Below are positions 4,296 to 59,690 of a DNA stretch of 64,000 bases, in pieces (positions within the stretch are counted from its first letter, which is position 1; each line of letters starts with the position of its first letter). The DNA comes from Omphiscola glabra (taxonomy: Eukaryota > Mollusca > Gastropoda > Lymnaeidae), in assembly GCA_964017045.1 (NCBI GenBank), contig OZ024799.1:35531736-35595735 (forward strand). The letters are read 5' to 3'. The notes under the pieces were generated by a model, which was not told where the DNA came from, searched no databases, and saw only the letters and a list, made by a program, of their open reading frames with translations. Position numbers and translations under genes: made by a program.

Positions 4296-4518
4296 GGCAT
4301 TTGGGGATCGTTCTAAATGGTCTCAGATGTGTACGTAAAGGCGGTGAGGTTGGGTGGAAATGGTACATCATAGTAGGCAACATATGTTCATAAATTTTTA
4401 AAGAAAAATTTCAAGTTGGAAATAAACAAAAGCTAGTGCAACATATTTATGTTTGTTTATTGAGATGTAGTGAGATCTAGTGGACACTTCGGTATACCTG
4501 GGGCGACAGGGCGCTGGT

Positions 4519-4878
4519 TAAACTCACGGGCGCTAGGCTGGTCAAACTCACTCACGCTAGTCTGTTTAAACTCACCGACTCTTGCCCTGTTAAACTTACC
4601 GACTCTTGCCTGGTTAAACTCACCGACTCTTGCCCGGTTAAACTCACCGACTCTTGCCCGGTTAAACTCACCGACGCTTGCCTCGTTAAACTCACCGACG
4701 CTTGCCTGGTTAAACTCACCGACGCTTGTCCGGTTAAACTCACCGACTCTTGCCCGGCTAAAATCACTGACGCTTGCCTGGTTAAACTCACCGACTCTTG
4801 CCCGGTTAAAATCACTGACGCTTGCCTGGTTAAACTCACCGACACTTGCCTGGTTAAACTCACCGACTCTGGCCTGTT
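4519..4878. repeat. 24-bp minisatellite, about 15 copies
   Basis: Unit contains GGTTAAACTCACCGACTCTT. A multiple of 3, so open on both strands, which explains the apparent proteins of SPTLARLN and TRQASVSL repeats. Confidence 0.9.
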
Positions 4879-14640: not shown

Positions 14641-14722
14641 GATTCTCAATGGGGCCGAGACTTTCCAGCGGTTCTTCCTCACCTTGGCCAAAACTGTAAC
14701 GGGCACCGGCATTTTCAACAGT
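14641..14722 (+). CDS. CACNA2D: Alpha-2/delta exon A (start of VWA_N region)
   Basis: The acceptor is a pyrimidine-rich stretch ending TTTACAG; the donor is AGT|GTAAGT. One base completes a split codon, followed by 27 codons that include FFLTLAKTVTG. LTLAKT is a shared landmark just downstream of the signal peptide in the family (alpha-2/delta-1 has VTLAKT). An alternative donor two bases upstream (CAG|GTGTAAG) is possible, but it would break the phase-0 junction with exon B. GC content and codon use differ clearly from the AT-rich flanks. No stop occurs in frame. The preceding exon with signal peptide was not found in the 14.6 kb upstream, so it is either small or outside the window. Confidence 0.85.
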
Positions 14723-14780
14723 GTAAGTAAACAATAAATATCTAGTTGTTAGTTCTCAATGGTTTCTCCATTGCAACCCA

Positions 14781-15310
14781 GCATTGCCTTCTTACCTCAG
14801 TTAGGGTGACTATACCATCTTACCTCAGTTGGGGTTGGCGTTCCCATCTTACCTCAGTTGGTGGTGGCGTTCCCATCATACAACCGTTAGGGTGACAATA
14901 CCATCTTACCTCAGTTGGGGTTGGCGTTCCCATCTTACCTCAGTTGGGGTTGGCGTTCCCATCTTACCTCAGTTGGGGTTGGCGTTCCCATCTTACCTCA
15001 GTTGGGGTTGGCGTTCCCATCTTACCTCAGTTGGTAGTGGCGTTCCCATCATACCTCCGTTAGGGTGACAATCCCATCTTACCTCAGTTAAGGTTGGCGT
15101 TCCCATCATACCTCAGTTAGAGTGACAATCCCATCTTACCTCAGTCGGGGTTGGCATTCCCATCTTACCTCAGTTAGAGTGACAATCCCATCTTACCTCA
15201 GTCGGGGTTGGCATTCCCATCTTACCTCAGTCGGGGTTGGCGTTCCCATCTTACCTCAGTCGGGGTTGACATTCCCGAAATACCTTAGTTGGGGCCGTCA
15301 GCACCTCCCT
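14781..15310. repeat. 30-bp minisatellite, about 18 copies, just after exon A
   Basis: Unit contains CCCATCTTACCTCAGTTGGG and TTGGCGTTC. Each copy carries CTTACCTCAG, which on the minus strand reads CTGAG|GTAAG (donor-like) and on the + strand resembles a pyrimidine-rich AG acceptor. Begins about 58 bp after the exon A donor. Confidence 0.9.
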
Positions 15311-20328: not shown

Positions 20329-20818
20329 CTCTGCGTCACTAAGGTAACACTGTGCGTAGTTCTCTGCGTCACTAAGGAAACACTGTGCGTAGTTCTCTGC
20401 GTCACTAAGGTAACACTGTGCGTAGTTCTCTGCCTCACCACCATAACACTGTGCGTAGTTCTCTGCTTCACCACCATAACACTGTGCGTAGTTCTCTGCT
20501 TCACCACCGTAACACTGTGCGTATTTCTCTGCCTCACCACCGTAACACTGTGCGTAGTTCTCTGCTTCACCACCGTAACACTGTGTGTAGTTCTCTGCCT
20601 CACCACCTTAACACTGTGCGTAGTTCTCTGCCTCACCACCGTAACACTGTGCGTATTTCTCTGCCTCAATACCGTAACACTGTGCGTATTTCTCTGCTTC
20701 ATCACTGTAACACTGTGCGTATTTCTCTGCTTCACCACCGTAACACTGTGTGTATTTCTCTGCCTCACCACCGTAACACTGTGCGTATTTCTCTGCCTCA
20801 CCACCGTAACGCAGAATA
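20329..20818. repeat. 33-bp minisatellite, about 15 copies
   Basis: Unit contains CCACCGTAACACTGTGCGTA and TTCTCTGCCTCA. A multiple of 3, so long open frames appear on both strands. Confidence 0.93.
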
Positions 20819-46598: not shown

Positions 46599-46712
46599 CG
46601 CCACCCTGTCATGAGTGTGACACCGAGGACGCCAGTGGACGTCAAAGTCATGTTGGCAGACGTGAAGAGAAAGATGGAGAGACTGCTCACGGAGAAAGAG
46701 GTTGCTGTTAAG
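46599..46712 (+). CDS. CACNA2D: Alpha-2/delta exon B (VWA_N helix)
   Basis: Exactly 38 codons, phase 0 at both ends, between a CTCTCCCCAG acceptor and an AAG|GTGATT donor. It encodes a charged helix containing VMLADVKRKMERLL and EKEVAVK. The equivalent family segment reads ARDIEKLL in alpha-2/delta-1 and MEEMF...EAVRRL in alpha-2/delta-3 as I recall them. The donor is weak (GTGATT rather than GTAAGT). An apparent open frame runs on upstream and downstream of the exon, but no family similarity is seen there. A 32-bp minisatellite begins about 75 bp after the donor. Confidence 0.88.
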
Positions 46713-46754
46713 GTGATTGCGACATTTCTTTTTTTTTTTTACAATGTTATTCTA

Positions 46755-47870
46755 TTTATTGATTGATTGATTGGATATTTATAAAGCGCTGGTATCCATG
46801 CTACTTTAGCATGCTCACTGCTGGTATCCATGCTACTTTAGCATGCTCACTGCTGGTATCCATGCTACTTTAGCATGCTCACTGCTGGTATCCGTGCTAC
46901 TTTAGCATGCTCACTGCTGGTATCCATGCCACTTTAGCATGCTCCCTGCTGGTATCCATGCCACTTTAGCATGCTCACTGCTGGTATCCATGCTACTTTA
47001 GCATGCTCACTGCTGGTATCCATGCCACTTTAGCATGCTCACTGCTGGTATCCATGCTACTTTAGCATGCTCACTGCTGGTATCCGTGCCACTTTAGCAT
47101 GCTCACTGCTGGTATCCATGCTACTTTAGCATGCTCACTGCTGGTATCCGTGCTACTTTAGCATGCTCACTGCTGGTATCCATGCTACTTTAGCATGCTC
47201 ACTGCTGGTATCCATGCTACTTTAGCATGCTCACTGCGCTCTGGTTTTCTTTAATCTATTTAAACAAAAAAGTCTTTAAATTTTTCTTAATTATTTTTTA
47301 TCCTTTTCAATACCCCTCAAAGATTGAGGCAAACTATTCCATAATTTTGGCGCCATCGCTTCAAAAGAGCGCACTCCGTAAGACTTTTTTCTGTGTTCAT
47401 CCACACTGGCAATTGTCAGTAAGGACTGAGTTGAGGACCTCAGGTTCTTTAAGGATACGTGTTTATGAATTAGTTCTTTAAGATATTCCGGTGCGGAGCC
47501 TTCTATGCAGCTATACGCCAGGGATAGAATTTTGTGGTTATGCGCTCACTCACAGGAACCCAGTGGAGATCTCGTAGAACTGGGGTGATGTGGTCTATAA
47601 TTGAACCATGCAGTTGCCCTCAGTAAGTACCACTCACACATGTCTTGATCTAAACTCATGTGCTTCCATAACAGTAACAATGTAGCAATCCAATATTTTA
47701 TCCTGATAACATTTGAGTTACATCTTGCTAACGAATGAGTATAAATAGATTTACTTGTTATATATCTGCCCCAAGAGCAGCTGCATAAAAGGGATATAGG
47801 CGTCCAGTCCATCAGGTTATCGGACTCTGGACTTGTGAGAAACAAAAAGGCCACAAAGGCTTCTACCTCG
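46755..47870 (+). mobile_element. Interspersed element carrying an internal hairpin minisatellite
   Basis: GATTGATTGATTGG, then ATATTTATAAAGCGC, then the 32-bp array, then a less AT-rich tract (47330-47600) containing AAAAGAGCGCACTCCGTAAG and AACTGGGGTGATGTGGTC. The TATAAAGCGC edge is typical of some dispersed animal repeats. The class is not established and the boundaries are approximate. Confidence 0.45.
46787..47236. repeat. 32-bp minisatellite, 14 copies, each unit a hairpin
   Basis: Unit contains TCCATGCTACTTTAGCATGC; CATGCTA and TAGCATG are inverted with a 3-base spacer. Begins about 75 bp after the exon B donor. Confidence 0.93.
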
Positions 47871-55546: not shown

Positions 55547-56509
55547 CTTTTTTCGCCTTTTAGTCCTCGAGGAACAGCAGCCGATCTTCATCGACGTCTG
55601 TGATTAGGACATATGCCGCCTACAAGAGCCCTCCAGGCATCACGATCCTGAGCCAATCTCTCCAGCCTCCCCCAAGTGTGGCCAAGTTTCTTGGTATCCG
55701 CCTCCACTTCACGGCGCCAAGTGTTCTTAGGCCTGCCTCTTTTCCGTTTTCCTTGAGGGTTCCAGTTCAAGGCTTGTCTAATTATGCTGGAGGCAGGTTT
55801 CCTGAGCGTGTGGCCAATCCATCTCCATCTTCTCTGGAGGATCTCTTGTTCTACTGGTTCTTGCTTTGTCCGCTGCCACAGTTTCTGGTTGCTGATTCTG
55901 TCGGGCCAATGAATCCCGAGAATCCTTCTTAAGCAGTTACTGATGAAGGACTGGATTCTCTTCATATTCCCAGCAATGATTCTCCATGTTTCTGCACCAT
56001 ACAGTAGAACAGGTTTCACCATTGTGTTGAAGGTTCTGATCTTCAGTTTGGTATTTAGGTGTTTGGAGGCCCAGACATTTTTTTTTTATTGGAAGGCTGC
56101 CCGTGCCTTTCCTACCCTTATTTTGATGTCAGCATCTGTCCCACCTTGCTTGTCCACGATGCTGCCAAGGTAGACAAAGCTCTCTACCTCTTCGAGCGCT
56201 TCCTCTTTGAGCCTGATGGGTGCTGTATTGGTAGCGGCATTGACCTTGAGGACCTTGCTCTTCCCCTTGTGAATATTAAGACCAATACGTGCAGAAGTGT
56301 CTGCAATATTTCTGGTCTTCTCCTGCATCTGTTGTTGGGTATGGGAGAGAAGGGCAAGATCGTCAGCAAAATCGAGGTCATCAAGCTGGTCCCACAAGGT
56401 CCATTGAATACCATTCCGCTTCTGCTGTGTGGAAGTTTTCATCACCCAGTCAATGGCCACTAGGAACAGGAAAGGCGAAAGCAAACATCCCTGCCTCACA
56501 CCGGTCTTC
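55547..56509 (-). pseudogene. 5'-truncated RTE-like non-LTR retrotransposon, frameshifted
   Basis: Minus strand. From the right the first frame reads TGVRQGCLLSPF, then the catalytic FADDLALLSH, then YLGSIVDKQGGTDADI. A second frame continues with [33 protein letters not shown] and [14 protein letters not shown] to the end. At least one frameshift separates them near 56085. These are reverse-transcriptase motifs from the B/C palm region to the C-terminus; the endonuclease and N-terminal parts are absent. The 3' tail is short and A/G-rich. Flanked by a 31-bp direct duplication, so it is an intact 5'-truncated insertion. Assignment to RTE is from motif wording. Confidence 0.92.
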
Positions 56510-56540
56510 ACTAAATTATGTTACAAGCCTAATCATCAAT
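56510..56540. repeat. Target-site duplication of a LINE, right copy
   Basis: 31 bp, 30 identical to 55516-55546. Confidence 0.93.
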
Positions 56541-57733: not shown

Positions 57734-57802
57734 AGATTGAAGGAGGCAGCACAACAAGCGATCAAAAACTACGGACCTTATAAAGAGCCGATAGACTTTA
57801 AG
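57734..57802 (+). CDS. CACNA2D: Alpha-2/delta exon C (VWA_N helix end)
   Basis: Exactly 23 codons, phase 0 at both ends, between a TTATTCCAG acceptor and an AAG|GTGAAT donor. It encodes RLKEAAQQA and ends with EPIDFK; the RLxEAAxxA pattern is close to the alpha-2/delta-3 class. The last 10 bases of the exon plus the donor are the start of a 63-bp tandem repeat that runs into the intron. Splicing at a later copy of the donor would insert codons V-N-N followed by TGA, so only the first donor preserves the reading frame. Confidence 0.88.
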
Positions 57803-58300
57803 GTGAATAATTGAATAATTGGCATCGATGTCATTTTTGTGTCTGTGAGTGATGTAGACTTTAAGGTGAATAATTGAATAATTGGCATCAATGTCATTTT
57901 TGTGTCTGTGAGCGATGTAGACTTTAAGGTGAATGATTGAATAATTGGCATCAATGCCATTTTTTTTTTTTGCGTGTGTGTGATGTAGACTTTAAGGTGG
58001 TTAACTGAATTATTGGCACCAATGTCATTTCATTCTTGTGATTACTTGACTTACATGTATAGCTCTTGTGTCCATGCTATTTTAGCATGCTCACATCACG
58101 TGAGCTGTAAGAGACTTAAAAGGTAAATAATTAAATTATTATCATGCATGTCCTTCATTCTTGTGAATTATACAGACTTTAAGGTATATAATTGAATTTA
58201 ATTGCTGACATGAATCTCATTTCATAATTGTGAGTTGTGGACAGACACTTCAAAAAACAAAAACTATGGGTTTTAATTGCTTTAAAGGTAAACTATTGAG
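57793..58300 (+). repeat. 63-bp tandem array that includes the exon C end and its 5' splice site
   Basis: The unit starts with the final exon C bases AGACTTTAAG and the donor GTGAAT. Near-identical GT positions lie at 57803 (genuine), 57866 and 57929, exactly 63 bp apart, and a fourth lies at 57997. More diverged copies with AAG|GT or similar occur at 58123, 58183 and 58288. Divergence and spacing irregularity grow with distance from the exon. Each early copy carries in-frame stops just after the donor. Confidence 0.9.
58058..58110. repeat. Single hairpin related to the 32-bp array unit
   Basis: TCCATGCTATTTTAGCATGC differs by one base from the core of the array at 46787-47236. Outer AGCTC/GAGCT extends the palindrome. 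Confidence 0.75.
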
Positions 58301-58570
58301 TTGGAGAACTATTTCTTGCTATTTGGCTCTTCAAAACACCTAACTCTACTTTGAAACCAGCCATTGCAGGCGTTAACGTTAAGATGACTAATTCCATGAT
58401 TTGCGCAACTGGACAACATTTTTATGGATCTGGTGGTTAAAATAACTGCAGTTTTATAATACTCATGTATTTCTTTCTAAGGTTTGTGCAGTGCTAACAA
58501 TGATTTGCCTAAAATATTTGATTAATAAAAATTTCTGTAAGTCTCACATTTCAAAGTTGTTTGTTTATAC

Positions 58571-59324: not shown

Positions 59325-59526
59325 GAAGTCGACTACTTTAATGCCAAGAAACTGGTGACCGATAAGGACATCGCGGACATGGACGAGCAGCTGAAGGAGG
59401 ACATAAAGAAAACCATCACCTACCTGCCCACGGAGCCGACCTGGGACTTCAAGGAAGACGACAAGAAGCCGTTGCTGAACAGTAACACCAGCTCCATTCA
59501 CGTGCCGACCAACATATACGATAAAT
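59325..59526 (+). CDS. CACNA2D: Alpha-2/delta exon D (YFNA to NIYDK segment)
   Basis: 202 bases, entering in phase 0 after a TATGTCTAG acceptor and leaving in phase 1 at AAAT|GTAAGT. It begins EVDYFNAKKL and ends SSIHVPTNIYDK. The family equivalents are Y(Y/F)NA early in this segment and (H/Q)(I/V)PT(D/N)(I/M)Y at its end, which directly precedes the region leading into the VWA domain. This is the strongest family match in the window. Reading through the donor meets a TAG within 11 codons, so retention would truncate the protein. The donor hexamer is repeated downstream every 24 bp. Confidence 0.92.
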
Positions 59527-59690
59527 GTAAGTACATAATCTATGTAAGTGCTTACTAGGTGGTCTTTGTAAGTACTTGTTAGGTGGTCTATGTAAGTACT
59601 TACTAGGTGGTCTATGTAAGTACTTACTAGGTGGTCTATGTAAGTACTTACTAGGTGGTCTGTGTAAGTATTTTTTGGGTGGTCTATGAA
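59527..59690 (+). repeat. 24-bp tandem array of GTAAGT donors starting at the exon D splice site
   Basis: GTAAGT hexamers begin at 59527 (the genuine donor), 59544, 59568, 59592, 59616, 59640 and 59664. From 59544 onward the spacing is exactly 24 bp; the first interval is shortened to 17 bp. The unit also carries CTTACTAGGTGG. The final copy is degenerate. Confidence 0.9.

Follow-up and report, generated by a model that had tools for sequence, protein, structure and literature searches.

How does a snail gene come to carry, at the end of one exon, a splice donor that is repeated together with the exon end into the following intron, and what would the splicing machinery make of the copies? The exon, named C here, lies in a window of 64,000 bases (the whole stretch of DNA analysed, C7:35531736-35595735 of a 745-Mb assembly), and the next 200 kb downstream were added to the analysis. 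A sequence-only reading had proposed a minisatellite with a functional donor inside its unit; our analysis supports that claim, and the observation as a whole was largely right. We think it probable, at roughly three chances in four, that the array is a minisatellite of the mirage type, which would have begun as a duplication of the boundary, expanded recently on its exon side and decayed neutrally in the intron while splicing stayed mostly normal. In the accessible text of the lancelet reports, mirages are tandem repeats across exon-intron boundaries, at the donor or the acceptor (PMC3087553, PMC3902484).

Judged by homology, the host is a gastropod voltage-gated calcium-channel alpha2/delta-3-like subunit gene. 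Of 699 candidates searched with the peptides of the window exons, four proteins reached E <= 0.01, all of them gastropod: those of Biomphalaria glabrata (62% identity), Physella acuta (52%) and Plakobranchus ocellatus (56% over 59% of the query), each named voltage-dependent calcium channel alpha-2/delta-3 or -3-like, and that of Elysia crispata (56% over 52% of the query). The alpha2/delta homology runs through 33 collinear matches to protein P0001 over the window and the downstream DNA; the Pfam VWA_N match alone is below its cut-off (31.8 vs 34.7 bits). Human alpha2/delta-1 gave weak tblastn matches that serve as a lead only, and the joined peptide of exons C and D had no match among solved structures. 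Four exons in the window fit the Biomphalaria protein end to end:

14641..14722, plus strand: exon A, donor at 14723, residues 45-69 of the Biomphalaria protein (tblastn)
46599..46712, plus strand: exon B, donor at 46713, residues 71-108 of the Biomphalaria protein (tblastn)
57734..57802, plus strand: exon C, donor GT at 57803, residues 109-131 (tblastn with P0001-P0003, junction fit)
59325..59526, plus strand: exon D, donor GT at 59527, residues 133-204, the alignment overrunning the donor by a few residues

The repeat lies across the donor of exon C and encloses one slot of other sequence:

57792..58236, plus strand: array C, a 63-bp minisatellite across the exon C donor, with copies starting at 57792, 57855, 57918, 57986, 58112 and 58172
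58050..58111, plus strand: a unit-length slot between copies 4 and 5, unlike the array C unit and part of a dispersed repeat

The unit begins 11 bases upstream of the end of exon C and consists of these 11 exonic bases (TAGACTTTAAG, from 57792), the 5' splice site and 52 intronic bases, so that it includes AAG|GTGAAT. Tandem Repeats Finder delimited the array at 57792-58030 with a period of 63, and a direct-repeat search placed copies at 57792, 57855, 57918 and 57986, at steps of 63, 63 and 68. The exon end and its GT do recur, as had been claimed, at exact 63-bp steps (57803, 57866, 57929); the sharing of coding bases also stands, but it extends over 11 of them and not 10. As for the decayed copies that had been listed, those with donors at 57997 (after the step of 68) and 58123 are real, and so is the one given at 58183, except that its GT lies one base further on, at 58184. 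The two older copies to which these last donors belong, at 58112 and 58172, each scored higher than all 500 dinucleotide shuffles. The remaining listed copy, at 58288, is near chance, being matched by 36/500 and 19/500 shuffles with two versions of the unit, and was not counted; a site at 58371, with a score of 15 where the next best site elsewhere reached 13, was likewise left out. Array C therefore has six real copies. The slot at 58050-58111, which the earlier reading had missed, is not among them, since 288/500 and 315/500 shuffles resemble the unit as well as it does.

Identity to copy 1 is 61/63, 56/63, 47/62, 38/60 and 43/59 for copies 2 to 6. A divergence that rises away from the exon, as had been suggested, is present as a trend in the aligned copies (Spearman -0.9, n=5) but not as a strictly monotonic order, copy 6 being nearer to copy 1 than copy 5 is. 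The companion suggestion, that the newest copies lie at the exon side, agrees with what we found: copies 1 and 2 are the same at 50/52 intronic bases, and copies 4-6 have in common an older tail that is absent from copies 1-3. Together with a tree of the form (c1,c2),(c3),(c4,(c5,c6)), with supports of 0.74-0.90, this tail and the near-identity of the first two copies indicate that the latest growth involved the exon-side copies, and the array probably grew next to the exon.

It could be argued that the exon-side copies were multiplied by the assembler, considering that copies 1 and 2 differ at 2/63 bases and that a supplementary legend in the accessible part of a lancelet report speaks of a mirage misassembled in the draft genome (PMC3087553). 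However, pairwise differences among copies 3-6 amount to 25-42% of aligned sites, beyond what assembly error would make, and we regard such an artefact as highly improbable. If the array is instead of the mirage type, the 63-bp piece of the alpha2/delta-3-like gene, with its 11 exonic bases, its splice site and its 52 intronic bases, would have been duplicated in tandem; the exon-side copies would have expanded again recently, older copies would be decaying deeper in the intron, and selection on the protein would hold the exon part of copy 1 while the remainder drifts.

Near-identical donors in series had been described at this exon, and the first three copies indeed share both the nonamer from -3 to +6 and a computed U1 pairing energy of -6.9 kcal/mol. 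Copies 4, 5 and 6 come to -5.9, -6.8 and -5.7, and the exon A, B and D donors to -8.0, -6.7 and -6.8. The GT survives in every one of the five later real copies. Sites that equal copy 1 for U1 make up 3.4% of the 3942 GU sites in the window, and in the remainder of the exon C intron 3/55 GU sites equal or beat it (best -11.0), so good-looking sites also occur outside array C.

With regard to reading frame, 57803 had been singled out as the donor that keeps it, and the later ones as donors that would truncate the protein. Exon C joined at 57803 meets exon D gap-free in the orthologues P0002 (125|126) and P0003 (35|36), which makes 57803 the donor consistent with the conserved protein. As that account had said, V-N-N-stop is read from all six later donors that it named, an addition that the orthologous proteins do not have. 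The first donor would accordingly make the conserved protein and any later one a truncated product. A message with V-N-N-stop would be open to nonsense-mediated decay, or would give a short N-terminal fragment.

What use the spliceosome makes of these donors can be anticipated in part from known arrays. Mainly normal splicing is to be expected at exon C, given that lancelet mirages of 10-160 bp are reported, in the accessible text, not to interfere with regular splicing (PMC3087553, PMC3902484). We would expect unproductive splicing at copies 2 and 3 to be low and variable, with the first donor dominant. Sizeable decoy use is possible as well, since the copy donors equal the true one for U1 and since the accessible text on human IFI6 reports two downstream units of its repeat as donors, with three mRNAs (PMC4526556).

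Such use might even be regulated: the repeated donors would compete for U1, splicing at copies 2-6 would yield unproductive mRNA that tunes alpha2/delta dosage, and array length would set the level. The identity of the first three donors, the GT kept in the five later real copies and the stop behind all six later donors speak for this proposal, and the IFI6 units show, as far as the accessible report goes, that such units are usable (PMC4526556). However, donor bases in copies 4-6 are kept no better than the rest (22/27 vs 106/162 elsewhere, Fisher p 0.07), and other 9-base windows in these copies are kept as well or better. A special preservation of decoy donors in the decaying copies is thus unsupported, and these figures give no evidence that the decoys are kept for a purpose. 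Furthermore, the other mirages of this gene, described below, are mostly dead as decoys, with 3/8 copies live at exon AB and none at exon AA, and those of lancelet are reported in the accessible text to be silent (PMC3087553, PMC3902484). We consider a regulated decoy unlikely; as a mirage-type array, array C probably has no selected function.

Arrays also lie beyond the other three exons of the window:

14790..15294, plus strand: array starting 68 bases past exon A, unrelated to the exon border
46788..47237, plus strand: 32-bp array starting 76 bases past exon B, unrelated to the exon border
59539..59688, plus strand: 24-bp array abutting the exon D donor, unit TCTATGTAAGTACTTACTAGGTGG

The last of these, array D, holds six extra GTAAGT sites (59544, 59568, 59592, 59616, 59640 and 59664), and its unit shares ATGTAAGTAC with the exon D border, whose four flanking bases occur at 0/25 of the other GTAAGT sites in the window. 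All six of its later GTAAGT sites are frame-shifted, the first adding six residues before the shift and the other five running into a stop. Array D contains GTAAGTACTTAC, which is its own reverse complement, and its RNA is much more strongly folded than shuffled versions (z -4.60), whereas the folding of array C is not unusual (z -0.10); RNA structure that sequesters the copies was therefore rejected as a general explanation. In each array the true donor is predicted to be the most open (0.065 in C, 0.027 in D), as an end copy, having fewer partners, would be anyway.

Within the slot in array C, 23 nt at 58072-58094 exactly match the core of the array that follows exon B. The dispersed repeat to which the slot belongs has at least 59 other matches in the genome, and the same search found no other match for the remainder of array C. 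At 58039-58111 and at 46788-47237 this dispersed repeat has a palindrome-like core, CATGCTATTTTAGCATG, and it is tandem at C5 and C9. Two minus-strand arrays of the window, at 4514-4876 and 20329-20810, contain 14 and 6 donor-like GTRAGK sites, and a fragment of a retroelement reverse transcriptase (RVT_1 and DUF6451 matches) lies on the minus strand at 55588-56520.

Array C is not a single case: unrelated arrays built in the same way occur at other exon borders of this gene and at one border of a cadherin-like gene nearby. Fit to P0001 placed 29 junctions, the introns after S, AC and AE being unplaced and outside all counts. Unrelated arrays run across four of the 29 donors (C, E, AA and AB) and abut three more (D, H and V), those at H and V starting 3 and 7 bases past the exon; one acceptor, that of exon I, is spanned. 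Outside the window these arrays and that of the cadherin-like gene are:

L010:1873-1983: exon E donor array, 55 bp, 2 copies, 7 exon bases, 49/55 identity
L013:631-890: exon AA donor array, 40 bp, about 6 copies, 3 exon bases, GT lost in the copies
L013:1598-1924: exon AB donor array, 35 bp, about 9 copies, 18 exon bases, AATGTAAG kept in 3/8 copies
L011:948-1275 (C7:35615947-35616274): exon I acceptor array, 98-bp unit, 32 exon bases
L026:2961-3189, minus strand: cadherin-like exon with a 37-bp unit repeated six times at its end

Exon, splice site and intron are combined in one unit, as in a mirage, at C, E, AB and the acceptor of I, and the unit lengths (63 bp in C; 55, 40, 35, 98 and 37 bp in the others) all lie within 10-160 bp. 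The three upstream copies at exon I keep 24, 31 and 26 of the 32 exon bases, and all three keep the AG. In the cadherin-like array, whose copies include 29 exon bases and are identical to the first at 33-37 of 37 positions, ACAG|GTGAGA stands in each of six strong donors, and reading past the first meets an immediate stop. This exon has a Pfam Cadherin score of 23.8 bits, below the cut-off of 28.8, with 59.5 bits in a neighbouring frame; it was found via its arrays and not in a blind count.

Could arrays and exon borders have met by chance in a gene so rich in arrays that some are bound to end at exons, where selection on the exon holds them? Array coverage is high (about 20-54% of every 10-kb stretch between 1 and 140 kb), and exons cannot hold arrays. 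Taken alone, the count of donors that an array spans with 3-40 exon bases exceeds simulation only weakly, 4/29 being reached in 54, 33 and 12 of 1000 runs with three array definitions; in these 1000 runs arrays were placed at random in the same gene, with exon entry allowed up to 40 bases. However, as counted from the sequence, the copies at C, E, AB and I hold 11, 7, 18 and 32 exon bases, and those of the cadherin-like exon 29, which argues that the border itself was the source of these units. Array starts lie within -35..+76 of 13/29 donors vs 4.07 expected (0/1000 simulations) and within -35..+15 of 7/29 vs 1.88 (1/1000), with no excess at acceptors (5/29 vs 4.06, 384/1000, and 1 vs 1.86 in the narrow range); under stricter array definitions the donor excess is sharper and the acceptors stay flat. 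A chance meeting is in our view improbable.

How far the donor excess can be taken depends on how it was counted. The first count, on the four window donors, was framed post hoc, and its cuts of 75 and 12 were each missed by one base. An earlier count over 23 donors, with AB left out, gave 7 where the background was 0.13 (P 0.024, and 0.006 and 0.003 when arrays were defined more strictly), and within 150 bases of those donors there was no clear excess (7/23, P 0.25 and 0.10; 6/23, P 0.049). The lower bound of -35 was chosen after AB had been seen at -18. For the 25 donors outside the window it gives 9 vs 3.44 (2/1000) in the wide range and 5 vs 1.58 (21/1000) in the narrow one, and with the original bound of -15 a hand count finds 8 of the 25. 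The excess as a whole comes from one array-rich gene.

It is conceivable that minisatellites arise again and again at 5' splice sites in this snail genome, as unrelated arrays at or beside donor after donor, the flat acceptors and the cadherin-like gene would suggest. We rate this as less likely than not, its support having grown with the out-of-sample donor count and the cadherin-like case. If it is true, there would be a donor-linked source of tandem duplication, for example breakage linked to the nascent transcript or to R-loops at intron 5' ends, and if the donor excess holds in other genes it would tell where some minisatellites are born. An exon with identical copies behind its true donor is also a natural experiment on donor choice by the spliceosome when the candidates are equal.

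Related systems have been described elsewhere. Mirages of amphioxus Adh3 were reportedly presented by Canestro et al. in 2002, and a minisatellite with several donors in IFI6 (6-16) is said to have been described by Turri et al. in 1995. According to the accessible text of later reports, the amphioxus cases comprise Adh3 (units of 10-72 bp), the globins BflGb6 and BflGb9 (150-160 bp), troponin C and PGBD5 (60 and 108 bp), and many of their copies retain splice signals (PMC3087553, PMC3902484). Array C resembles them in being a minisatellite-like repeat over a boundary and in its range of unit length; unlike them, it belongs to a mollusc, to a gene with several independent cases and to one with a donor excess of array starts. 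As in IFI6, one exon receives several donors from a minisatellite, but where the downstream units of IFI6 are reported as used, the later donors of array C would, if used, truncate the protein. Intron gain by tandem duplication likewise starts, in the accessible text, with a duplicated segment that bears splice signals (PMC4974935, PMC3087553), whereas the snail copies lie inside an existing intron with no new exon between them; this class was rejected, all copies being in one intron and exons C and D gap-free against the orthologues. The literature searched, with most subscription papers outside its reach, held no described example of a mirage in a mollusc or gastropod, and the accessible parts of papers on Conus, earthworm and sea bream mention intron minisatellites or cite the term with no donor-spanning unit. 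The present arrays extend the mirage type to a mollusc, the reports found being only those for lancelet and for one human minisatellite of similar effect.

Further downstream, array coverage is about 1% from 150 to 200 kb. Among the 18 placed junctions of G6PD and TBC1D22 in this part, no array starts within 150 bases of a donor, the nearest at 192; these genes say little on donors, as there are almost no arrays there. The drop to about 1% over some 50 kb with G6PD and TBC1D22 gives the impression that arrays keep to one domain. In the piece searched, a nearby gene shares 94% identity with a Lymnaea stagnalis protein. Finally, the last coding part of G6PD has two matches about 2.6 kb apart, at L018 near 9714 and L019 near 2294, which may represent a duplicated last exon.
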